Origin: an uncultured Candidatus Nemicrothrix sp.
GTDB lineage: Bacteria > Actinomycetota > Acidimicrobiia > Acidimicrobiales > MedAcidi-G1
Assembly: GCA_913055915.1 (NCBI GenBank)
Contig: CAJXKL010000009.1
Coordinates: forward strand, 1-64,000
Length of the DNA stretch: 64,000 bases
Direction: 5' to 3'
Below, piece by piece: positions 24,258 through 34,634 of the stretch. The translations under genes and the position numbers were made by a program. The notes below the pieces were generated by a model. The model did not search any database, was not told the DNA's origin, and worked only from the letters and a program-made list of their open reading frames with translations. Each line of letters opens with the position of its first letter. The stretch's first letter is position 1.

Positions 24258-25523
24258 GTGAGAACTGCTCGTAGCAACCGGCCGGCAAGGCGGTCAGCCG
24301 CCGGTTTCTATGGCTGGCAGATGGTTGGACTTGCCAGCCTCGTGGGAGTTCTCACCGGTCCTGGGCAGTCGATCGGGGTCTCTGTCTTTCGCCAACACCT
24401 CTCTGACGGACTCCACATCTCTGACTCGGCCATTGCCACCGCATATCTGGTGGGCACCCTGTTGTCCTCCACCTTTCAGCCGAGGATCGGCCGCTGGGTC
24501 GACGAGGTCGGTGTGCGGCGGGCATCAACTGTGTTCGGTGCCGTCTTCGCCCTGACGCTTGCCCACATGTCGCTGGTTCGTGGTGCCGTCTGGCTCACAG
24601 TCGGATTCTTTGGCATTCGGCTGCTCGGACAGGGCGCCCTTAGCATGACGTCAACCGTTTCGGTCATGCACTGGTTCGAACGACGTCGCGGATTTGCCCT
24701 GGGTCTGAAGATGACGCTCACGATGGGGGGCATCTCCGTCGTACCGGTTCTTCTGGCTCTCGCAATCGACGCCTGGGGTTGGCGCCTGGCATGGTTGGCG
24801 GCAGCGGCCGTGGTCGCCCTCACCGCAGTACCCGTTAGCTGGTTCGGCTACGTGAACCGACCCGCCGACCTGGGCCAGCAACCCGACGGTGGGCTTCGGC
24901 CTGACGATGACCAACCCGGGCCCACGCTCCCGTTGATCACAAGGTCAATGGCACTCCAGTTTCCAGCTTTCTGGATCCTCTCAGCGGTTACCGCCACCAA
25001 CGCCCTCTTTGGCACCGGCCTCTTGTTCCACCAGACCAACCTGCTCGGTGAGGTCGGCTATTCGAATACGCAGGCTGCAGCAATGTTCCTTCCACAGGCG
25101 GCTGGTGCCGTGGCCGGTGGCCTCACATTCGGATGGCTGGCTGACCGAAAGGTCCGACGGAGCCTCCCGGCGGCCGTGGCGCTGTTGCTGGCAACCACGA
25201 TGCTTCTGGGGGGTACAGCGACGACCTTCTCCACCATCTTGCTCTACTCGGTGATTCTGGGTGTGACAATGGGGAGTGGAGTCGCCGTGCAGAGTTCCCT
25301 GCTGCCAGCACTCTTCGGCATTGGCCACATCGGCTCCATTTCCGGCACCCTCGGCCTGGTTGGCGTGCTTGCCTCGGCGATGGGCGCACTGACCTTTTCG
25401 ATCGGAAGCACCGTGTTTGGCAGTTACCGGAGCGCCAGCCTGTGGCTCAGCGTGCTTCCGCTGCTGATCGCCCTGCTGGCAACCGTGTCCAGGCGACATT
25501 TCACTACGGATGATCGCTCCTGA
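24258..25523 (+). CDS. Major facilitator superfamily transporter
   Basis: This 421-residue protein has 12 hydrophobic helices in two six-helix halves joined by a charged loop (PADLGQQPDGGLRPDDDQPG, about residues 199-218). Visible MFS traits are FQPRIGRWVDEVGVRR (motif A between helices 2 and 3) and FGWLADRKVRRSLPAA (its repeat between helices 8 and 9). It looks like the monocarboxylate or oxalate/formate antiporter-like branch, but the substrate is unknown. It starts at GTG behind a leaderless -10. It is the last chromosomal gene before the island boundary and could serve the amino-acid operon upstream. Confidence 0.88.
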   Translation: MRTARSNRPARRSAAGFYGWQMVGLASLVGVLTGPGQSIGVSVFRQHLSDGLHISDSAIATAYLVGTLLSSTFQPRIGRWVDEVGVRRASTVFGAVFALTLAHMSLVRGAVWLTVGFFGIRLLGQGALSMTSTVSVMHWFERRRGFALGLKMTLTMGGISVVPVLLALAIDAWGWRLAWLAAAAVVALTAVPVSWFGYVNRPADLGQQPDGGLRPDDDQPGPTLPLITRSMALQFPAFWILSAVTATNALFGTGLLFHQTNLLGEVGYSNTQAAAMFLPQAAGAVAGGLTFGWLADRKVRRSLPAAVALLLATTMLLGGTATTFSTILLYSVILGVTMGSGVAVQSSLLPALFGIGHIGSISGTLGLVGVLASAMGALTFSIGSTVFGSYRSASLWLSVLPLLIALLATVSRRHFTTDDRS

Positions 25524-25557
25524 GGAACCCGCACCATCAGAAGTCTGGAATTGAGGG

Positions 25558-25642
25558 GAAAACACCAGAACCCCCTGCTGAGCAGGGGGTTCATGTGGAG
25601 CGGACGACGAGATTCGAACCCGCGACCCTCGCCTTGGCAAGG
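25558..25642. repeat. Island-flanking direct repeat, left copy (attachment-site candidate)
   Basis: This 85-bp stretch matches 34521-34605 with about three mismatches at a constant offset of 8963 bp. It contains a terminator hairpin and the 3' half of tRNA-Gly(GCC) through the anticodon arm. This is the structure left when an element integrates at a tRNA gene. Confidence 0.85.
25571..25589 (-). terminator. Terminator hairpin of the displaced tRNA-Gly 3' end
   Basis: A CCCCCTGCT/AGCAGGGGG stem, followed on the minus strand by TTCTGGTGTTTTC. It is the same terminator as at the intact tRNA-Gly. Confidence 0.6.
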
Positions 25643-25643
25643 C
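25596..25643 (-). pseudogene. tRNA-Gly(GCC) 3' fragment
   Basis: Acceptor 3' strand with CCA, T arm and the complete anticodon arm GCCTTGCCAAGGC are present, while the D arm and 5' acceptor strand are lost. The outer anticodon-stem pair differs from the intact gene as a compensated change (G-C for A-T). It is the displaced half of the target tRNA. Confidence 0.8.
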
Positions 25644-25657
25644 ATGTCAACCTATTT

Positions 25658-25769
25658 CGCTGACCTGTGCAAACACACGGAAACCGCCTCTGGCCTGCTG
25701 TTCCAGTTGATCACTGGTTCGCGCTGGTTCGCGTTGTTTCGCGACGTCTCGCGGCCTGTACGCGGCCTG
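25658..25769. repeat. 112-bp arm-like module with tandem 10-bp repeats, copy 1
   Basis: About 95 percent identical to 30585-30696. It ends in four consecutive 10-bp units, GTTCGCGCTG, GTTCGCGTTG, TTTCGCGACG and TCTCGCGGCC, then TGTACGCGGCC. Such iterons next to a tRNA attachment site look like arm-type sites for a recombinase or its accessory factor. Confidence 0.65.
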
Positions 25770-25838
25770 CCAGAACGGCCTAGTCCTCGAAGATCGATGG
25801 AAGAGACCGCAGGAGCTCTAAGCGGGTGGCTGGCTGGT

Positions 25839-26168
25839 TCAGGTCCCCGGAGGGCTGTAGGTCATGGCTCCACTGACCGTTGCGGTAGCGGCATCGATCT
25901 CCTCCGGGGTCAACAGGACGGTCATGCTTCCTGCGACCATTCCCGATGCCGAGACAGCGAGGCTCACTGCGGCGGCATCGGCATTCGAGGGAAAGTCGGC
26001 GATTATCACGGCGTCGCTCTCACCAAAGGCGAAGTAGAAAGACTCAAGGGTTCCACCCACTGACTCCATCGCAGCGTTTGCGGCGGCCACTCGAGCCGAT
26101 CCCCCTTCGGACAGGAGGCCCTGGACCCCCTCGGTGGTGTAGCTAGCGTTGAACATGTACTTGGGCAT
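25839..26168 (-). CDS. GYD-domain protein
   Basis: This 109-residue protein starts MPKYMFNASYTTEGVQGLL, typical of the GYD/DUF1330-like alpha-beta barrel family. It continues VGGTLESFYFAFGESDAVII, where the family's GYD-type turn is replaced by GESDAV. The function of the family is unknown; small dimeric barrels of this kind often bind or oxidise aromatic ligands. Two ATGs are adjacent; the second (26168) has GGAG 6 nt upstream and is preferred. It forms a pair with the next small barrel-like gene at 26197, 28 bp upstream in the same direction. Confidence 0.78.
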   Translation of the reverse strand: MPKYMFNASYTTEGVQGLLSEGGSARVAAANAAMESVGGTLESFYFAFGESDAVIIADFPSNADAAAVSLAVSASGMVAGSMTVLLTPEEIDAATATVSGAMTYSPPGT

Positions 26169-26196
26169 CATGGTCTCCTTGGTTGTCTGCTCTTGT

Positions 26197-26505
26197 TCAG
26201 GAAAAGAGGTCTTGAGTGATGTGCTGGGACACCATCCTTGCCGGTGGGTCGGACACGAACTCCCCGCCAAGAGCCCGCCAGTCGTCGTCGCTGGGCAGAG
26301 CCTCCAGAAAGGCACCGAGTGCCACTGCATCCGGGAAGGAACACACGTAGGTCATGGTGTGACCCGGTCCAGCCACATTGTTGAGCAACAGAACCTTCTC
26401 TGCCCCCAGGCGCTGGTGGATCTGGGTGGACCGGCGGCAGACCTTGATGAAGTCTCCCTCCCGCCCCTGGGCAACCTCCCATGTGGTCTGTGTCAAATGC
26501 TTCAT
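26197..26505 (-). CDS. Small ferredoxin-like (NIPSNAP/dimeric alpha-beta barrel type) protein
   Basis: This 102-residue protein begins MKHLTQTTWEVAQGREGDFI and continues RLGAEKVLLLNNVAGPGHTMTYVCSF. That beta-alpha-beta pattern with a central GPGH turn is typical of NIPSNAP or dimeric alpha-beta barrel proteins. I do not recognise a specific family. The C-terminal SDPPARMVSQHITQDLFS resembles the end strand of such barrels. It precedes the GYD gene in the same orientation, and the two may be co-transcribed. The 298 bp upstream (26506-26803) contain short GC hairpins but no gene I can support. Confidence 0.6.
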   Translation of the reverse strand: MKHLTQTTWEVAQGREGDFIKVCRRSTQIHQRLGAEKVLLLNNVAGPGHTMTYVCSFPDAVALGAFLEALPSDDDWRALGGEFVSDPPARMVSQHITQDLFS

Positions 26506-26803
26506 GTTGTCCTCATTCTGTTGTACCGCTCGGTGGGACAGTAGCGAGGGCGGGGAAGCACCTCAAGAGAACCTGAGGCTTGTAGGCCTCACCCCTTGAC
26601 AAGGGCCTGAGGGGGGCGGTTGTGCACTGTTTCGTTGTGCAGGCCGCCTACTCGCCAACAACGTCAATCCACTAAAGCGAAAACCTCAATAGCACAGTCA
26701 CCGAGGTCACCGTCAGCCATACAGGGCTGATTCAGTGGGTAGTTAGGGAGATGAAGGTGTCCTAGTCTGAGACCACAGCACCACCATGCGAGGATGACCC
26801 TTC

Positions 26804-27598
26804 GTGTCCCAGACCTTCCATCAGGTCGATGCCTTCACCAATGAGCCGTTTCGGGGGAATCCGGCAGCCGTGTTCGTACTCGACGAACCGGCGGACCCGG
26901 TCTGGATGCAGTCAGTGGCTCTGGAAATGAATCTGTCGGAAACGGCCTTTTGCCACTCGTCGCCCCGGACCAGCGAGGAATGGGACCTTCGCTGGTTTAC
27001 GCCGACGGCCGAAATGGACCTATGCGGCCACGCCACACTGGCCACTGCGCACGTGCTGGTCGAAGAGCACGGCGCGGGCGGCGAGATCGAATTCCAAACC
27101 AAGTCCGGCCGGTTGACAGCGATATCCGTGGATGGGGGAATACGTCTCGACTTTCCAGTGGACGTCGTCAACATCCTCCCGGTGTCCGAGAAGATGACCG
27201 ATGCCCTTGGCCTACCAATAGTCGACGCCGGAATAGGCCTCACCGACCTCGTTCTGGAGGTCGGCACGGCAGCCGACGTCCGCGGCTGTGCCCCTGACCT
27301 ACAACTGCTGGCCCGCCTAGCGGACCGTGGGGTGGTGGTCACCGCCCAGTGTGATGACCGGGACGACATCGACATCGTTTCACGGGTGTTCGCCCCGAAC
27401 GTCGGGATCCCCGAAGACCCGGTGACTGGGTCGGCCCACACCACGCTGGCCGCCTGGTGGGCGCCCCGCCTCGGTCCGGTGCTGCGTGCCGAACAGGCGT
27501 CATCGCGTGGGGGTGAACTGGACGTCAGCCTGGTCGGCGAACGCGTACACCTCACCGGCTGTGCCGTGACGGTGGCCCGTGGGATGCTTCTGATATGA
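26804..27598 (+). CDS. PhzF-family isomerase/epimerase
   Basis: This 264-residue protein has the PhzF fold: TFHQVDAFTNEPFRGNPAAVFVLDEP at the start, EMNLSETAFCHSS with the catalytic Glu (about residue 46), CGHATLATAHVLVEE, and VFAPNVGIPEDPVTGSAHTTLAAWWAPRLG near the end. PhzF itself isomerises a phenazine precursor. Most homologues are uncharacterised isomerases of small acids, so no pathway is assigned. The GTG start lies about 10 nt after GAGG. It is convergent with the thioesterase, with a GC hairpin between. Confidence 0.88.
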   Translation: MSQTFHQVDAFTNEPFRGNPAAVFVLDEPADPVWMQSVALEMNLSETAFCHSSPRTSEEWDLRWFTPTAEMDLCGHATLATAHVLVEEHGAGGEIEFQTKSGRLTAISVDGGIRLDFPVDVVNILPVSEKMTDALGLPIVDAGIGLTDLVLEVGTAADVRGCAPDLQLLARLADRGVVVTAQCDDRDDIDIVSRVFAPNVGIPEDPVTGSAHTTLAAWWAPRLGPVLRAEQASSRGGELDVSLVGERVHLTGCAVTVARGMLLI

Positions 27599-27627
27599 GG
27601 GAACGGACCTGAAATTGCGATGATCCT

Positions 27628-27641
27628 CCCGCTTCGGCGGG
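27628..27641. terminator. Hairpin between phzF-like and thioesterase genes
   Basis: CCCGC-TTCG-GCGGG is a 5-bp GC stem with a stable UUCG-type loop between two convergent genes. There is no U tract. Confidence 0.4.
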
Positions 27642-27667
27642 CCCGGCACCCACGTCGCGGTCCCCAC

Positions 27668-28051
27668 TCACCCGCTCAGGTGGGCCCGGACAGCCGGTGG
27701 TGGCGCCATGGGTACATGGTCACCACCCGAGACGCCGACGTAGTACACGGTCGCCGTCAGGACTACGCGGTCCTCCACCCGGACGTCGAAGGCCATGTCG
27801 AACGACGTGGTCCCCCACCGCACGACCTCGGCCGTCACCACCAACTCATCATGCACCCCGGCCGGTCCGTGCCAGGTGAGGTCGGCCCGGCGCAACATCA
27901 CTTCCCAGCCGGTGGACTCGAAGTCCGTATCTAGTGTCCGGAGCCACGAATCCGCGACGTCGTCCAGGTACGCCAGGTAGTGGGCGTTGAATACAACGCC
28001 CTGCAGGTCAACCTCGCCGTAGCGGACGCGGATGTTTTGTGTGTAGGCCAC
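27668..28051 (-). CDS. 4-hydroxybenzoyl-CoA thioesterase-like protein
   Basis: This 127-residue hotdog protein has RVRYGEVDLQGVVFNAHYLAYLDD (about residues 8-31), in which Asp in the EVDLQGVVFN motif is the catalytic residue of 4HBT/YbgC thioesterases. The core strand LVVTAEVVRWGTTSFDMAFDV and C-terminal VVLTATVYYVGV follow. It should cleave short or aryl acyl-CoA. The frame is open to 28162, but the family N terminus (AYTQNIRVRYGEVD) fits the GTG at 28051. A CCCCAC-TTCG-GTGGGG hairpin at 28096-28111 lies upstream; otherwise 28052-28244 holds nothing I recognise. Confidence 0.82.
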   Translation of the reverse strand: MAYTQNIRVRYGEVDLQGVVFNAHYLAYLDDVADSWLRTLDTDFESTGWEVMLRRADLTWHGPAGVHDELVVTAEVVRWGTTSFDMAFDVRVEDRVVLTATVYYVGVSGGDHVPMAPPPAVRAHLSG

Positions 28052-28244
28052 TCTCCAACTTTCTGTAGTCCTCTTGGTACCGCCCAACCTTAGGCCCCCA
28101 CTTCGGTGGGGATTTCGTCGTTGGGGTCGGATCGCTGCTGAAGTTTCCATTCCTCCCTCCATGGGTGCTGATGCTGATTTCCTGCATCCATGGGGAAGTG
28201 TTTTTCGGTAACTAGTCCTGCTCGCCGGGTGGCAAACTGAACGG

Positions 28245-28796
28245 ATGGTGGCCTGCCCGACGCTTGAAACCGATCGCCTGGTCCTGCGCCCATTCCGGGA
28301 CGACGACCTTGCCGATCAGTTCGCCATGATGGACAGCCCCGAGGTTCGGGCTGCCCTGCGGATCCCGGACGGTGCAGGGTTGCCCGAGGCATTCAACGCG
28401 ATGGCTTCTGTGCTTGGTCAGTGGGAGTTACGGGGCACTGGACATTGGGCACTCGAGGAGAAGGATTCTGGACAATTCGTCGGAAGCGCTGGGTTGAACC
28501 GGCCCGAACGTCACAACTGGCCGGGTGTCGAGGTCGGGTGGACGCTCCACCCCAGCCAGTGGGGGCGTGGCTACGCGACAGAGGCGGGAGCGGCGGCAGT
28601 CCGCTACGGGTTCGAGGAACTCGGCGAGGAACGACTCTTCAGTTGCATCGTGCCTGACAACCACCGGTCACAGGCAGTGGCCCGGCGGCTTGGGTTCGAA
28701 CTGATCGAGGAAAGGGTCATTTCGTTTTTTCCGGATGAACCCGAGGCACATGGCATCTGGGCCTTGGATAGGAATACTGCAGACTTCAGCCGTTGA
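28245..28796 (+). CDS. GNAT N-acetyltransferase (RimJ/RimL type)
   Basis: This 183-residue protein starts with ETDRLVLRPFRDDDLADQFA, the RimJ/RimL opening. It has the acetyl-CoA pyrophosphate loop WGRGYATEAGAAAVRYGFEEL (about residues 106-126) and the SCIVPDNHRSQAVARRLGFE segment that closes the fold. The acceptor may be a protein N terminus or a small amine and cannot be told. It is an isolated island gene with the left copy of a 19-bp repeat just after its stop. Confidence 0.86.
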   Translation: MVACPTLETDRLVLRPFRDDDLADQFAMMDSPEVRAALRIPDGAGLPEAFNAMASVLGQWELRGTGHWALEEKDSGQFVGSAGLNRPERHNWPGVEVGWTLHPSQWGRGYATEAGAAAVRYGFEELGEERLFSCIVPDNHRSQAVARRLGFELIEERVISFFPDEPEAHGIWALDRNTADFSR

Positions 28797-28801
28797 GCAG
28801 C

Positions 28802-28820
28802 GCCTGAACTGGTTTGGCCG
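28802..28820. repeat. 19-bp direct repeat flanking the SET gene, left copy
   Basis: gcctgaactggtttggccg is perfectly repeated at 29394-29412. The two copies bracket only the SET-domain gene. Confidence 0.85.
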
Positions 28821-28848
28821 AACCGCACCTACGGGCGGGATGCGGGGA

Positions 28849-29361
28849 TCACCCTGTCGGTCGTTTCTCCAGATCCGAGAGTTCTTGGCTGTATCGATCC
28901 ACGAACCAGTCGGCCAGCAACGGCACGTATTCGCGTTGTATTCCCGGAGGCAGGGCAAAGAAACTCACCGAGGTCATCCCTCTGCATCGACTTGCGCCAC
29001 AGTTGCAGGGCCAAGAGGCGCCGCCACCGTTGTTGATCATGTAGTCGATCGTGATCTCTTCGCCCTGGCTGATTCGGCGACGGGCAACGATCTCCGGTCG
29101 ATCGTCGACGAATCGTTCCCATGCGTTGGGATCGCAACTGTGGTTGTAGTGGCGGTCGGGGACGCCGTACAGGACGACTTGGCCCTCGGGGTGATGCCAG
29201 TTGCAGTGCTCGACGTGTTCGTCTCGGCCGGATCGCAATGGGGCGTCAGCGGTGATCTCACGGACGATGTTGACCACCCGGATGGTTTCCCCGACAGCGA
29301 AACTTCGGCTGGCGAAGACTCCAGATCCCTCGATATCAGAGTGCCGAACCTCCACATCCAT
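28849..29361 (-). CDS. SET-domain protein (lysine methyltransferase-like)
   Basis: This 170-residue protein holds a compact SET domain. VEVRHSDIEGSGVFASRSF (N-terminal SET strand), DRHYNHSCDPNAWE (the NHSCxPN knot and SAM site) and GEEITIDYMIN (catalytic Tyr) are in order. A post-SET-like Cys cluster, WPCNCGASRCRG, follows and would bind zinc with the NHSC Cys. It should use SAM to methylate protein lysine. I start at ATG 29361 because TACCGT lies 6 nt upstream. The longer frame would translate the flanking 19-bp repeat. Confidence 0.88.
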   Translation of the reverse strand: MDVEVRHSDIEGSGVFASRSFAVGETIRVVNIVREITADAPLRSGRDEHVEHCNWHHPEGQVVLYGVPDRHYNHSCDPNAWERFVDDRPEIVARRRISQGEEITIDYMINNGGGASWPCNCGASRCRGMTSVSFFALPPGIQREYVPLLADWFVDRYSQELSDLEKRPTG

Positions 29362-29367
29362 GACCGG

Positions 29368-29373
29368 ACGGTA
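29368..29373 (-). promoter_or_regulatory. Leaderless -10 (TACCGT) for the SET gene
   Basis: TACCGT on the minus strand with a 6-nt spacer to the ATG at 29361. Confidence 0.5.
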
Positions 29374-29393
29374 GTCCTCGATGCCCCACGCTG

Positions 29394-29412
29394 GCCTGAA
29401 CTGGTTTGGCCG
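29394..29412. repeat. 19-bp direct repeat flanking the SET gene, right copy
   Basis: Identical to 28802-28820. It ends the small SET-gene unit and precedes a more AT-rich stretch. Confidence 0.85.
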
Positions 29413-29546
29413 CAAAGGCTGACTTCAGGCCCCTACGGAAGCGATGCTGTTGCCGTGCAGTCGATGGGGACCGTTAAGGGTTTTTCCGTAGATAGTCGCT
29501 GTTGCCGGGGGGCGTACCACCAATACCAAACCTCCATCGTTGCATA

Positions 29547-29569
29547 TAGGAATGATTCCCATTATTCTA
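29547..29569. promoter_or_regulatory. Zur/Fur-type operator candidate before the ZIP transporter
   Basis: The core AATGATTCCCATT lies in an AT-rich interrupted palindrome (AATG...CATT) similar to zinc-repressor boxes. It ends 6 bp before the ATG at 29576, where a bound repressor would block transcription. A ZIP importer is the classic Zur target. Confidence 0.5.
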
Positions 29570-29575
29570 TTTTGT

Positions 29576-30439
29576 ATGGGACCGCTCTACATATCTCTGG
29601 TGATAGTCATCGTTTCTCTTGGGGCAGGCCTACTGCCCCAGGTTTTCGCTAACAAGATTTCATCGCAGAGTCTGACAGATCTGACTGGCTTTGCATCCGG
29701 CCTGTTGCTGGCTTCGGCATTCTTGGTCGTAGTCCCGGAGGGTTTCCATACTGCTGCCACAGGTGACGGCGTATTTTCTTCTGATCCCCTGGTGATGGGT
29801 CTTGCTGCCCTGGCCGGATTTATCGTGTTATTGGCGTTGGAAGGCTTAGGGATTGGTCACGCCGTCCACGAGGAGCATCATGACCACGCGACCGGGCACG
29901 GCCATGAACACGTACATCACCCTTTCTCAGGGAGAGTCATCGCAATCGGGCTGTCAGCGCACGCCTTGGCAGATGGCGTTGCAATTGGAGCGGCGGCCGC
30001 ATCTGGTGAGACATCATTCTCATTACTTGTGGCATTTGCGGTGGTCGTTCATCGCGTGCCGGCTGCGCTGAGCCTGGGGATATTTCTGCTTCATCAACCA
30101 GGTGGAAGGAGATCAGCCCTAAAGGGCCTTCTGTTATTCACCTTCGCTACACCAGCAGCCCTTGCCCTTTCGTACCTGGTGCTTAACGATGTAGATGAAT
30201 CAATCTTGGCTCTCGTGCTGCTCTTCTCGGCTGGGACTTTCGTCTACGTAGCCACAATCGATACTTTGCCAGCCATCCACAATCCGGCCACTGGTCAGCG
30301 TTCAGTGCGCAACGTGCTATCAAGCGCTGCAGTGCTTTCCATAATCCTGATATTGCTGAACAACGCTGGGGTCTTGGAACACAGCCATCTCGAAGGTGAC
30401 TACAACCATGATGACGTTCACGTCGAGGAAAGTCTTTGA
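29576..30439 (+). CDS. ZIP-family metal transporter
   Basis: This 287-residue membrane protein has about seven to eight helices and the His-rich loop AVHEEHHDHATGHGHEHVHH between helices 3 and 4. Metal-path motifs follow: IAIGLSAHALADGVAIGAAA (helix 4, HxxxDG) and AFAVVVHRVPAALSLGIFL (helix 5, HRxPA). The C-terminal tail is again His/Asp-rich. It should import zinc or a related divalent cation. In-frame starts at 29540 and 29552 would put the metal box inside the gene, so ATG 29576 is preferred. Base composition is visibly more AT-rich than neighbours, suggesting recent transfer. Confidence 0.87.
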   Translation: MGPLYISLVIVIVSLGAGLLPQVFANKISSQSLTDLTGFASGLLLASAFLVVVPEGFHTAATGDGVFSSDPLVMGLAALAGFIVLLALEGLGIGHAVHEEHHDHATGHGHEHVHHPFSGRVIAIGLSAHALADGVAIGAAAASGETSFSLLVAFAVVVHRVPAALSLGIFLLHQPGGRRSALKGLLLFTFATPAALALSYLVLNDVDESILALVLLFSAGTFVYVATIDTLPAIHNPATGQRSVRNVLSSAAVLSIILILLNNAGVLEHSHLEGDYNHDDVHVEESL

Positions 30440-30525
30440 TCTTCGTCGACGAAGACTACGACTGCGCCGACAACCCCGACGGTGACCACCACCAACTCAA
30501 ACGAAAGTAGCCGGGGCTATCTCTG

Positions 30526-30572
30526 TCGGGCTGAGAGGATTTGAACCTCCGACCTTCGGTCCCCCAGATCGA
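30526..30572 (-). pseudogene. tRNA-Pro(GGG) 3' fragment inside the island
   Basis: The minus strand shows the anticodon loop CTGGGGG (anticodon GGG), stem half ACCGA, T arm GGAGG-TTCAAAT-CCTCT, acceptor strand CAGCCCG and discriminator A. The D arm and 5' acceptor strand are missing, and the 5' anticodon stem has one mismatch. It is a second displaced tRNA half, followed by the same arm-like module as the tRNA-Gly half. Confidence 0.75.
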
Positions 30573-30584
30573 TGCACCCCAATC

Positions 30585-30696
30585 CGCTGACCTGCGCAAA
30601 CGCCCGGAAACCGCGTCTGGCCTGCTATTCTAGTTGATCACTGGTTCGCGCTGGTTCGCGTTGTTTCGCGACGTCTCGCGGCCTGTACGCGGCCTG
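30585..30696. repeat. 112-bp arm-like module with tandem 10-bp repeats, copy 2
   Basis: About 95 percent identical to 25658-25769, with the 10-bp units fully conserved. It occupies most of the 331-bp gap 30440-30770, together with the tRNA-Pro fragment and one copy of the GTGTAGATACG repeat. Confidence 0.65.
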
Positions 30697-30770: not shown

Positions 30771-31316
30771 TTATGCACTCCCTGGGATAATCCCCCAGCG
30801 GATCCGTGCCCAGTAGCGCTCGTGGAAGAAATAGAGCACCAACTTGGTGATGACCTCAAACCCGCCGATCGAAATTGCTGTGGCCAGATTGCCGGTGAAG
30901 ACGAGCCCGAGCACCATGGTGTCCGCGCTTGCCAGCACTCGCCATGTCGCCGTCTTGGTGGCCGAGCGCCGCCGACCGTCCCGGTAGTGACCCTCCTCGT
31001 CCAAGGCGCGATCCCATCGCAACCGCGACCAAAGCCGCTCATGTAGGTAGTAGAGCGTCATCTTGGTTGCCACTTCTGTCAAGGCGATTGTGGCCGCGGT
31101 TCTTATCTTGTCCGTGCCACTTGTCTCCTCAAGGCCGAACAGTGGACCGAGAAAACTCAGGATGACAAAGGACAGAAGCAGGGTGTCGAGTGTTCCCACT
31201 ACCCGCCAAGAGATCGCCTTGACGATCGAGCGCGCCGGTTGGATTTCCGGCGGGTTCGGGGGATCTAGGCGCGGGTCCTCAGGACCGAAGATTGGACTTT
31301 CTGGGTGTTCTCTCAT
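30771..31316 (-). CDS. DUF2061 membrane protein, two tandem repeats
   Basis: This 181-residue protein contains two copies of the DUF2061 unit. Unit 1 runs from SIVKAISWRVVGTLDTLLLS to TLYYLHERLWSRLRW. Unit 2 runs from SATKTATWRVLASADTMVLG to VLYFFHERYWARIRWG. Each has two hydrophobic helices and a terminal HERxWxRIRW motif. The family is of unknown function; its members are small membrane proteins. The frame is open to 31610, but ATG 31316 (MREHPESP) is the first sensible start. No Shine-Dalgarno is seen. Confidence 0.82.
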   Translation of the reverse strand: MREHPESPIFGPEDPRLDPPNPPEIQPARSIVKAISWRVVGTLDTLLLSFVILSFLGPLFGLEETSGTDKIRTAATIALTEVATKMTLYYLHERLWSRLRWDRALDEEGHYRDGRRRSATKTATWRVLASADTMVLGLVFTGNLATAISIGGFEVITKLVLYFFHERYWARIRWGIIPGSA

Positions 31317-31543
31317 TTCGATTTGAGTCTGGCATGTCTTCCCTGAGAGTTCTTGACTGGGGTGAGCCCCCACCCCGAGGGGGGTGGGCCACCCTGCTGG
31401 TCGCCCAGGAGACCACCAGGTGCCGCATTGGTAACTTGTGCTGATTGCTGGCCTGACGGGCGACCTCGTGCCTGACAGCGGCGACTCTTGCTTCTTCGGC
31501 GCCAGTCGATTCCCCAGCGTCGGCTGTGCACGCACGGTGGGAC

Positions 31544-31549
31544 TACGGT
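31544..31549 (+). promoter_or_regulatory. Leaderless -10 (TACGGT) for the haloalkane dehalogenase
   Basis: TACGGT with an 8-nt spacer to the ATG at 31558. Confidence 0.45.
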
Positions 31550-31557
31550 CCGCCGGT

Positions 31558-32445
31558 ATGACCCCGACCACAGGAAAGCACCCGATCGACAAGCGGTTCG
31601 CCACCGTCAACGGAAAGCGGATGGCCTACGTGGAGGTCGGTGAGGGCGACCCGATCGTGTTCCTGCACGGCAACCCCACGTCGTCGTACCTCTGGCGCAA
31701 CGTCATCCCGCACGTGTCCGACCTCGGGCGCTGTATCGCTCCCGACCTGATCGGCCAGGGTGATTCGGAGAAGTTGGACGACTCCGGCCCCGGCTCGTAC
31801 CGGTTCGTGGAACACCGCACCTACCTGTGGGAACTGTTGGAACAGATCGGCGTGACGGGGCGCGTGACCCTGGTTGTGCACGACTGGGGCTCGGCTCTCG
31901 GGTTCGACTGGGCTGCCAACCACCCCGAGGCGGTGGCCGGGGTCTGCTACATGGAGGCCATCGTCCGACCCATAGCCACGTGGGACGAGTGGCCCGAGGC
32001 CGCACGGGGCATCTTCGAGGCCTTCCGGTCGCCGGCGGGCGAGGACATGGTGCTGGAGAGGAACCTGTTCGTGGAGGCGGTCCTACCCGGAGCGATGATC
32101 TGCGACCTGGCACCCGAAGACCACGACGAGTACCGGCGACCGTTCGCCGAACCGGGCGAAGGGCGGCGCCCCACCCTCACCTGGCCCCGTGAGATCCCCG
32201 TAGCGGGCGAACCGGCCGACGTGGTGTCAATCGCCTCGGCATACGCGGACTTCATGGCGTCGGCCCCGTTCCCGAAGTTGTTCGTGAACGCAGAACCCGG
32301 CGCCATCCTGACCGGCGCCCAGCGCCGGTTCTGCCGTACCTGGCCCAACCAGACGGAGGTCACGGTCGCCGGAAACCACTTCATCCAGGAGGACTCCGCC
32401 GATGAGATAGGAGCGGCGCTTGCCGACTGGCACGCTCACCTGTAG
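31558..32445 (+). CDS. Haloalkane dehalogenase (DhaA/LinB group)
   Basis: This 295-residue alpha/beta hydrolase has the full dehalogenase set: FLHGNPTSSYLWRN with halide-binding Asn39, VVHDWGSALGF with nucleophile Asp109 and halide-binding Trp110, CYMEAIVRP with acid Glu133, and TVAGNHFIQEDS with base His274. A Glu in this position after strand 6 marks the HLD-II subfamily. It should cleave carbon-halogen bonds of alkyl halides to alcohols in the cytosol. The start at 31558 gives the family N terminus; upstream in-frame codons are not needed. It is an island cargo gene with no obvious pathway partner. Confidence 0.9.
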   Translation: MTPTTGKHPIDKRFATVNGKRMAYVEVGEGDPIVFLHGNPTSSYLWRNVIPHVSDLGRCIAPDLIGQGDSEKLDDSGPGSYRFVEHRTYLWELLEQIGVTGRVTLVVHDWGSALGFDWAANHPEAVAGVCYMEAIVRPIATWDEWPEAARGIFEAFRSPAGEDMVLERNLFVEAVLPGAMICDLAPEDHDEYRRPFAEPGEGRRPTLTWPREIPVAGEPADVVSIASAYADFMASAPFPKLFVNAEPGAILTGAQRRFCRTWPNQTEVTVAGNHFIQEDSADEIGAALADWHAHL

Positions 32446-32536
32446 GCAGGAAGCAGCCACGAGACATGGCCTGGCTTGTTCAAGCCGACAATCCTCGGAC
32501 CAGTACACCGACTCGCAGAGCGTTACAACAACCCAC

Positions 32537-32585
32537 GCCCTGAGCGGAGTGGGGGCGACATCGGAGCCCCCAGGTGTAGACAAGT
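32537..32585. repeat. Short dispersed repeat, copy B
   Basis: CCTGAGCGGAGTGGGGGCG, then CCCCCAGGTGTAGACAAG. It is a diverged copy of the 30697 repeat. The rest of the 327-bp gap 32446-32772 shows no gene. Confidence 0.5.
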
Positions 32586-32730
32586 ACCAACCGCCCGTGT
32601 GTGTTGTCCCGGAGATTTTCGCTCTGAACGGAAGCACACAGCAAGCTTCGGGGAGCTAACACCCGACCTTGTCAGAGGAGGTTGCTCCTCGTTCAGTCGG
32701 CGGCAGTTGGTACTTGGTCTCTGACGCCCT

Positions 32731-32750
32731 CGGTGTAGATACGCGCAGGC
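32731..32750. repeat. Short dispersed repeat, copy D (core only)
   Basis: CCTCGGTGTAGATACGCGC keeps the core but lacks the G-rich half. Confidence 0.5.
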
Positions 32751-32772
32751 GAGGCCGAGAACACGAATCTGA

Positions 32773-34305
32773 TCAGCAAGTTGGACTGTCGGTGTCGGCG
32801 AAATCAACCGTGAGAACGTACGTCCCAGGAAAGAATTGCAAAGCCATCACGTATAGGTCGTACCGGCCAGTTTCCTTAGCCTCAAAGATGATTTCCGCTC
32901 CATCGCCGTAGAGACCAATACCTGCATCATCGTTGGAGGCAACAAGAAAGTCGTTTTGGTAGAGGCTCATCATGGGATCAGACATCGAAACCATCTGAAT
33001 TCGGACCGTGTCCCCTTTCTGGAGATCAACCCGATAACTATCCACATCCTGGATGTGGTTGAGCGCACCGGTTACAGATTCGCCTATAGCCAATACTCCG
33101 CCGGGAGGTTCTACGTCTTCCAGGGTTGTGAGGGGACTGGAAGCCTCGACAGAAACTTCTGCCGAGGTGTAGGAAAAATGACCGACTGCAACGACGTAGA
33201 CGCCAGGTCTCAGCGAAACCTCTAGGGACTCCCTTGTCTCATCGTCAAACACGTCAGCGAAGAACAGGGCAGGTTCTTCTTCAGCCAGTGCGTAGAGGTC
33301 GTCCCAGATGTAGTCGACTTCGTCCTGGGACCAGTGCCAAGACGGGATGAGTCCGTCCCAAGTGCTGATGTCCAACCACACGTCCTCACCCTCCGGAGAA
33401 TTGGCGGTCACCGACAACAACGGTTGTTCCTCTGTGACCGTCACGAGGTAACCGGCATTATCAGAGCCCACCACTCGGGCACCTTGTCTAAGTGCACCAG
33501 CCCCCTCAGGCGTAGACAGGCTCCCCGATCCTTCATCCAGACCTGCGAGAACAGCCGATACATCTTCGGCAGTGAGGACCAGGCCGAAGTTCGCCGCTGT
33601 GAATCCACCAAGACCAGAGATCCCAATCAACTGCCCGGTGGCATCCACCAACGCCCCACCACTTTGGCCACCGGCAATCGTCGCGTCGGTCTGAAGGAAG
33701 GTGAGGCCGAGACAGGACGCAATCCGTCGGCGGCTCAGGGTCCCAGAGGTCATCGTCGGTTCCGGTCGGCTCTCAACCTCTCCCGGGTAACCGATCAGAT
33801 AGACGGTGTCGCCAATCTCAACTGTGGCGCTGGAGCCAAAGTCAACTGTAGGAATCTCCCCAGCTAGTTCGTCAAACGGCATCGGCCCGAGCAATGCCAG
33901 ATCGCTCGACCAATCTCTGGCATAAACCGGAACCTCTGCGACCTCTCCAAGAGAGGTGAAAAGTCGTACGGTCGGAAAGTGGCCGACGATGTGGGCGTTA
34001 GTGACCACGTAGCCGCTCGAAAGCAGAACTCCACTTCCGGTGCCATCTGGCACTTCAATGAAAACCACCGAAGGGGAAACGGCGGCGAACACCTCGGCGG
34101 GTGTTGGCGCTGCCAAAGTCGAAGGCACAGCCGTCGTCGTGGTCGGTGCCACAGTGGTCGTCGGTGCCAGCGCCACAGTGCTCATCTCCGCTTCAAGCGC
34201 TTCAACCTTTTCCCGCAACACCTGCAACTCCGCAGAATCGCTGCCACCTGAACAACCCGATGCGAGCAGAGCCATCACGGCCCCCGCTGCAAGTGACGAT
34301 CTCAT
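32773..34305 (-). CDS. Secreted S1C (HtrA-like) serine protease lipoprotein
   Basis: This 510-residue protein starts with a lipoprotein signal (LLASGC; Cys18 would be lipidated). A short coiled coil (LQVLREKVEALEAEM) and a Thr/Pro linker follow. The trypsin-like domain has VVTNAHIVG (His), DWSSDLALLG (Asp) and ATIAGGQSGGALVD (Ser), a complete triad. No PDZ is evident. The C-terminal 170 residues look like beta-rich PPC-type domains (SYRVDLQKGDTVRIQM, AKETGRYDLYVMAL). It should act outside the cell, anchored in the membrane. Composition is less GC-rich than core genes. Confidence 0.87.
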   Translation of the reverse strand: MRSSLAAGAVMALLASGCSGGSDSAELQVLREKVEALEAEMSTVALAPTTTVAPTTTTAVPSTLAAPTPAEVFAAVSPSVVFIEVPDGTGSGVLLSSGYVVTNAHIVGHFPTVRLFTSLGEVAEVPVYARDWSSDLALLGPMPFDELAGEIPTVDFGSSATVEIGDTVYLIGYPGEVESRPEPTMTSGTLSRRRIASCLGLTFLQTDATIAGGQSGGALVDATGQLIGISGLGGFTAANFGLVLTAEDVSAVLAGLDEGSGSLSTPEGAGALRQGARVVGSDNAGYLVTVTEEQPLLSVTANSPEGEDVWLDISTWDGLIPSWHWSQDEVDYIWDDLYALAEEEPALFFADVFDDETRESLEVSLRPGVYVVAVGHFSYTSAEVSVEASSPLTTLEDVEPPGGVLAIGESVTGALNHIQDVDSYRVDLQKGDTVRIQMVSMSDPMMSLYQNDFLVASNDDAGIGLYGDGAEIIFEAKETGRYDLYVMALQFFPGTYVLTVDFADTDSPTC

Positions 34306-34374: not shown

Positions 34375-34458
34375 GGGCAGTAGGGCCGACTTGACACTTG
34401 CGGCGAACCATTCCCAGCGCTCGATGAGAAATTGGTAGACGATCTCAATCGTGCCCAT
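34357..34458 (-). pseudogene. Possible gene fragment of 33 codons cut by the short repeat
   Basis: An ATG frame encodes MGTIEIVYQFLIERWEWFAA and a further 13 residues before a TAG formed by the repeat core CTAGGTGTAG. The amphipathic, aromatic-rich start looks protein-like, such as a permease N terminus, but is too short to place. It may be the stump of a gene interrupted by the repeat, or chance. Confidence 0.3.
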
Positions 34459-34520
34459 TTCGAAGCACTCGCGGCCTCACCGCAGCCTGAGCCACAAATC
34501 ATCGTTTCCTTGGATCCAGA

Positions 34521-34605
34521 GAAAACACCAGAACCCCCTGCTCAGCAGGGGGTTCACGTGGAGCGGACGACGAGATTCGAACCCGCGACCCTCACCTTGG
34601 CAAGG
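34521..34605. repeat. Island-flanking direct repeat, right copy
   Basis: It matches 25558-25642 and overlaps the 3' half of the intact tRNA-Gly plus its terminator. Confidence 0.85.
34534..34552 (-). terminator. tRNA-Gly terminator
   Basis: A perfect CCCCCTGCT/AGCAGGGGG hairpin just after the tRNA 3' end on the minus strand, followed by a T-rich stretch (TTCTGGTGTTTTC). Confidence 0.7.
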
Positions 34606-34634
34606 TGATGCTCTACCAGCTGAGCTACGTCCGC
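34559..34634 (-). tRNA. tRNA-Gly(GCC), intact
   Basis: The acceptor pairs GCGGACG with CGTCCGC, the D arm has GCTC/GAGC, the anticodon arm is TCACC-TTGCCAA-GGTGA (anticodon GCC), the T arm has TTCGAAT, and CCA is encoded. It is the apparent integration target of the island to its left. Confidence 0.96.

Follow-up and report, generated by a model that had tools for sequence, protein, structure and literature searches.

A 112-bp iteron module behind tRNA 3' halves as the probable attachment arm of a tyrosine-integrase family in Acidimicrobiales

The first 64,000 nucleotides of contig CAJXKL010000009.1 from an uncultured Candidatus Nemicrothrix sp. (the whole stretch analysed, hereafter the window) contain two copies of a 112-bp module that ends in short, regularly spaced repeats (iterons) and lies behind the 3' half of a tRNA gene. 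We conclude, with a probability of about 0.9, that this module is the left (P-type) arm in the attachment (att) site of a family of tRNA-targeting tyrosine integrases, whose core specificity has diverged while the arm has been kept, and that the window copy has lost its integrase. The element in the window is a tRNA-targeting integrative element, as seen from the repeats at its ends, the full tRNA gene at one end, and the empty site in relatives.

Ends of the element in the window

The left copy of the attachment repeat (25557–25642, minus strand) consists of a terminator hairpin and the 3' half of a tRNA-Gly(GCC) gene up to the anticodon loop. The right copy (34520–34634, minus strand) includes a full tRNA-Gly(GCC) gene at 34559–34634, which is restored at the right end of the element and was recognized by ARAGORN and Rfam. 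The two copies match at 82 of 85 positions, hairpin included (25557–25641 and 34520–34604), and the Gly half (25596–25642) is 98% identical to the full gene. The chromosomal left flank is an MFS transporter gene (24258–25523, plus strand; Pfam MFS_1). In a genome of the same genus (G004; G and L denote genomes and loci, respectively), the orthologue of this gene and an intact tRNA-Gly gene are 68 bp apart, and the right flank is the same as that of the window. Therefore, the approximately 9 kb of cargo in the window is an insertion between the Gly half and the restored tRNA-Gly gene. Likewise, an intact tRNA-Gly gene stands directly behind the MFS gene in G068.

The two modules (25658–25769 and 30585–30696) share 106 of their 112 positions (94.6%, E = 2.7e-45), in agreement with the figure of about 95% given in an earlier, sequence-only reading of the window. 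All six mismatches are confined to 25668–25704, and the terminal 65 bp (25705–25769), which hold every iteron, contain none. That reading had described four in-phase TTCGCG units at 10-bp steps. The exact 10-bp spacing was borne out, but the units are three TTCGCG and one CTCGCG, followed after 11 bp by a fifth unit, TACGCG (25718, 25728, 25738, 25748, and 25759 in the left arm of the Gly element; 30645, 30655, 30665, 30675, and 30686 in the second left arm, at the Pro junction). Each module lies behind a minus-strand tRNA 3' half, of tRNA-Gly(GCC) and tRNA-Pro(GGG), respectively, and the distances from the anticodon to the first iteron (82 and 83 bp) are nearly equal, as had been stated. A whole-genome query found a third, degenerate copy (C18:29721, 79% identity) behind a remnant of a Gly half.

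An alignment of left ends from the window and its relatives revealed that the 15–18 bp separating the module from the tRNA half are specific to the tRNA class, whereas the module itself is not. In the window, the Gly-type segment occupies 25643–25657 and differs between Gly and Pro elements. The number of iterons varies among left arms by whole 10-bp units, and a tRNA 3' half directly adjoins nearly every left arm whose upstream sequence could be used. No grouping by tRNA class is evident among the arm sequences, in which 4 label changes were counted against a mean of 3.6 after shuffling.

The right end of the element carries a remnant of an integrase gene. From 34390 on, LDTCGEPFPALDEKLVDDLNRAHFEALAASPQPE aligns with LDTYGHLLPGLDERLCDDLEEAHFEALAASPRPE of the Gly integrase at L083 in G009, with a local alignment score of 49, where shuffled sequences scored no more than 15. 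The remnant of this Gly-type gene (LDTCGEPFPALDEKLVDDLNRAHFEALAASPQPEPQII; 34390–34503, plus strand) comprises about 38 codons, with a cysteine at the expected position of the catalytic tyrosine. Since the right end aligns with the last codons of the Gly integrase, the integrase gene has been lost up to about the catalytic tyrosine and the right arm retained. This arm, CTCGCGGCCTCACCGCAGCCTGAG at 34468–34491, is inside the remnant, in the same place as in the L083 integrase. The integrases found in the genome of the window are only 27–31% identical to the arm-sharing family.

Arms, integrases, and tRNA partners in relatives

The recombinase that co-occurs with the iterons at tRNA 3' ends in relatives, which the sequence-only reading had proposed to look for, is a tyrosine integrase of 376 amino acids (Phage_integrase and Phage_int_SAM_3). 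At L025 and L026, the last 23 bp of the module recur in the 3' end of the integrase gene, which faces an intact tRNA-Pro(GGG) gene. The right arm reads CTCGCGGCC(N2-4)CGCGGCCTGAG and is contained in the integrase gene, at the 3' end next to the intact tRNA; the 112-bp module and this right arm are referred to below as arm class A. Intact integrase genes facing the tRNA at one end of the element were found at L050 and L025/L063, and L050 combines on a single contig the iteron block of the left arm, cargo, a complete integrase gene, and tRNA-Pro. A related integrase (45% identity) at L083 is located at tRNA-Gly(GCC) and has CTCGCGGCCTCACCGCGGCCTGAG near its 3' end.

Class-A arms occur at no fewer than five tRNAs in Acidimicrobiales, Pro, Gly, Met(CAT), Ala(TGC), and Val(TAC), which supports the proposal of a family with a common arm that uses different tRNA genes: the module is found behind Pro, Gly, Met, and Ala halves, and right arms in integrase 3' ends are found at Pro (L025, L026, and L050), Gly (L083), Met (L144), Ala (L143), and Val (L155/L174, with a separate arm at L175). 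In G288, a genome outside the family of the window's host, two modules 2.2 kb apart both follow tRNA-Met(CAT) halves, and an integrase bearing the right arm is located at tRNA-Met(CAT) in G100. G076 has a module following a tRNA-Ala(TGC) half; some 5.5 kb from it, an intact tRNA-Ala(TGC) gene adjoins an integrase 3' end that carries the right arm. At tRNA-Val(TAC), an arm-bearing integrase was found in G298 and a right arm in G229.

Matches to the module or its end were found in 13 of 48 genomes of the family, 12 of them other than that of the window, and in 10 of 298 genomes sampled from the order, several of which had only short end matches. Most carriers of the module have no close integrase. 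Viral contigs contained no match to the exact right-arm pattern and a single match to the integrase protein (27% identity), and phage DNA records contained no match to the module. Among the few pattern matches outside Acidimicrobiales that were inspected, L038 and L048 lack iterons, and L036 and L053 have a true left arm. The latter two are on contigs of metagenome-assembled genomes labelled Chloroflexi (CAJWER010000289.1) and Euryarchaeota (PCCI01000011.1), respectively, and are probably mis-binned Acidimicrobiales contigs.

The N-terminal domain of the integrase is associated with the arm class. We compared 29 related integrases with complete N-termini, five of which (two Pro, one Gly, one Val, and L158) were assigned to class A. 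At a catalytic identity of 0.44–0.60, N-terminal-domain identity was 0.59 in class-A pairs and 0.39 in the rest (p = 0.0001 by permutation of labels), in a sample drawn with one query, with pairs that are not independent and class labels set by eye from the DNA. The core-binding domains of class-A pairs exhibited no excess similarity (p = 0.88). An earlier comparison of two Pro integrases, one Gly integrase, and one outgroup displayed no special N-terminal conservation, four sequences being uninformative. The N-terminal domain is predicted to form three strands and a helix (mean predicted local distance difference test score, pLDDT, 76), a topology that some arm-binding domains have. Of 34 integrase 3' ends, 16 contain a unit of 7–20 nt that recurs at 9–12 bp spacing, mostly 11, beyond what shuffles gave; therefore, repeat-type arms may be general in this integrase group.

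Other end types were also observed. A second left-end type (CCCCCAGATCACAGAAATCTGTCC..., in some cases followed by GTGCAATGAAGTGTGCAACGCG) behind tRNA-Pro-like halves and a second right-end type (GACAGGCCAGAGGGTGC...) were noted among L098 (7169–7402, G000:C18), L029 (7598–7641), L099 (5998–6032), and L085, pointing to another putative element family at the same tRNA. Arm classes besides class A also seem, from their sequences, to be common to several tRNAs: GTTGCACGTATGTTGCACG is present at tRNA-Thr(TGT) and tRNA-Arg(TCT) (L170 and L172), GTGGACTTTT(T/C)GTGGACT at tRNA-Arg(ACG) and tRNA-Thr(CGT) (L156 and L157), and pairs of GTTGCACG at tRNA-Arg and tRNA-Thr are an example of such a class.

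Proposed mechanism and alternative explanations

In the mechanism that we propose, the N-terminal domain of the tyrosine integrase would bind the iteron blocks of both arms, and the core-binding and catalytic domains would recombine a core in the anticodon loop of the tRNA gene, as expected of a heterobivalent (lambda-type) integrase. Integration would restore the tRNA at one end and leave the 3' half with the left arm at the other. The arm-binding domain and the arm DNA would have been retained, with core specificity diverging to the Pro(GGG), Gly(GCC), Met(CAT), Ala(TGC), and Val(TAC) tRNAs. The element in tRNA-Gly in the window, integrase-less with both arms kept, would be movable only by an integrase acting in trans. 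We infer the binding of the integrase to the arms, excision, present mobility, mobilization in trans, and the entry route of the Pro junction.

Several points weigh against this mechanism. No single contig was found to carry a complete element, with its integrase undamaged and its two ends intact: the left arm of L050 lacks its outer part, and the integrases of L143 and L083 are truncated. L028 and L033 have a left arm with no recognizable right arm. As for the N-terminal domain, L158 carries only a degenerate arm and is therefore the weakest of the class-A labels, and L161 has a class-A-like domain with no class-A arm within the approximately 20 kb read around it. A fold search of the PDB with the N-terminal domain gave no significant match, and the AlphaFold model of the full-length integrase was poor (pLDDT 48) and unusable.

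The iterons might instead serve replication in an integrated element of plasmid type, where a Rep protein rather than the integrase would bind them. The repeats are indeed short and in phase, and the gene upstream of the L050 integrase weakly matches a helix-turn-helix DNA-binding family (E = 2e-4), although it has no Pfam match. However, a Pfam scan found no Rep-family gene in the window element, and 72,556 plasmid records gave no DNA match to the module. In addition, the block keeps a constant distance from the tRNA core, and at the opposite end it is again found next to the tRNA, within the integrase gene, so that we regard this explanation as very improbable. A similarly slight chance is left for the two modules being one recent duplication or an assembly artefact rather than members of a multi-tRNA family. 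The copies are 95% identical and 5 kb apart, but the two halves derive from different tRNAs, and the Pro copy is 96% identical to a Pro element of G011 and is thus at least as close to it as to the Gly copy. Moreover, the 12 other genomes of the family and genomes outside the family contain matches, and Pro and Gly junctions are mixed on one contig of G018 (C25).

A third explanation takes the module as a piece coding for the integrase C-terminus that was copied to the other end and conserved for its protein; a coding sequence conserved at the protein level was also what the sequence-only reading had named as evidence against its view. The right arms do lie within the integrase reading frame, and the final 23 bp of a left arm equal the codons at the 3' end of the Pro integrase gene (ISRPVRGL). 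However, Pro and Met integrases read the motif as TCG CGG CCT (SRP), whereas it is CTC GCG GCC (LAA) for the Gly, Ala, and Val integrases; the use of two frames already contradicts this explanation and indicates conservation as DNA. Left arms contain in-frame stops (GTTCTAGTTG) and have lost or gained 10-bp units, and are therefore a DNA site. We consider the coding explanation hardly credible.

At the Pro junction in the window, the tRNA-Pro(GGG) 3' half (30525–30568, minus strand), the covariance-model match of which was below threshold, has the T-arm allele GAGAGG/CCTCC, whereas the genome's own tRNA-Pro has GGGGAG/CTCCC. Because G009 and G004 share the allele of the half, it was probably brought in by an element. 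The Pro junction interrupts the Gly element. Tandem insertion, as suggested by the sequence-only reading, is only partly borne out: no recognizable right arm precedes the junction in the window, and a clean tandem is therefore not demonstrated. The junction may have arisen by homologous recombination between arms or through the integration of a composite element. Across the tRNA-Pro(GGG) genes and halves at L006, L015, L025, L028, L050, and L097, three compensated T-arm alleles were observed (GAGAGG/CCTCC, GGGGAG/CTCCC, and GCCGAG/CTCGG), which would be consistent with elements replacing the tRNA 3' half upon integration. The arms may even serve as a common currency, such that every class-A integrase would be able to use the arms of every class-A element, integrase-less cargo elements would be mobilized across tRNAs, and the matching 112-bp arms would allow elements to swap tRNA cores by recombination. 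We regard this extension as doubtful; if true, it would account for the Pro and Gly junctions in one array.

The occurrence of one arm class over five tRNA specificities, integrase-less elements included, appears to be new; we found no earlier description in Acidimicrobiales in the open literature, a search that left most subscription journals outside. The family is a natural set of integrases in which arm recognition is apparently constant, the target tRNA changes, and the arm DNA can be read from each genome. Thus, how integrases change their target, namely through which domain and which part of the DNA, is directly testable. In addition, the sequence tag CTCGCGGCC(N2-4)CGCGGCC with TTCGCG iterons offers a means of locating otherwise invisible integrase-less islands in uncultured Acidimicrobiales.

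Cargo of the element and comparison with known systems

According to a Pfam scan, the cargo comprises genes for GYD, PhzF-like, thioesterase, GNAT, and SET-domain proteins and a ZIP transporter (25839–30439), and those for a DUF2061 protein, an alpha/beta hydrolase, and a trypsin-like protease (30771–34305). No recombinase or phage structural domain was detected among its ten main open reading frames, and a PHROGs search with three cargo proteins gave matches only of protease type or of unknown function. By these searches and those of phage records and viral contigs, the element does not qualify as a prophage or phage satellite. An exact 19-nt repeat (GCCTGAACTGGTTTGGCCG) is found within the cargo at 28802–28820 and 29394–29412, and a variant of it adjoins the left arm in the G027 element (L030 2194). 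The dispersed motif CCTAGGTGTAGATACG and its variants occur in the second half of the element (30718, 32560, 32730, and 34356) and elsewhere in the same genome, near 29700 of G000:C18, at C8:250, and at C35:4509. These repeats were considered as a second set of arms and rejected, being few in the genome and not much above the control count.

Known systems resemble the family in part. In Tn916, the N-terminal domain of Int consists of three strands plus a helix, both arms contain direct repeats, and the element is not known to target tRNA genes. The three-strand-plus-helix domain predicted here and the direct repeats of the arms are similar, whereas tRNA targeting is seen only here, and no significant structural or sequence match was found. 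Tycheposons of Prochlorococcus are described, in second-hand accounts, as cargo-carrying marine elements by tRNA genes with a tyrosine recombinase (PMC10872708, PMC11389934). The likeness is one of description only, and the host here is Acidimicrobiales.

By its sequence, the window copy resembles a cis-mobilizable element (CIME) and can be called CIME-like, being integrase-less with both attachment ends kept (the arms start at 25658 and 34468). ICESt1-related islands provide known cases of CIMEs and of tandem accretion at att sites (Pavlovic 2004; reviewed in PMC5704250); CIMEs likewise have lost their integration gene, kept both attachment ends, and become stacked with further ends at one site. 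In contrast to CIMEs, no conjugation genes or relatives of integrative and conjugative elements were seen in the Pfam scan of the window element, to which that search was limited, and a single arm sequence is common to elements of different tRNA specificity.

Phages lambda and HK022, which share arm sites, are a parallel in that related integrases differ in core specificity. In lambda Int, the N-terminal domain binds the arm sites, and the core-binding and catalytic domains bind the core sites (PMC4880445), and the change of specificity between the two integrases is a natural one (Yagil 1989, as cited in PMC8371274). Unlike that pair, the family described here combines one arm class with at least five core specificities, all of them tRNA genes, and several of its carriers are without an integrase.

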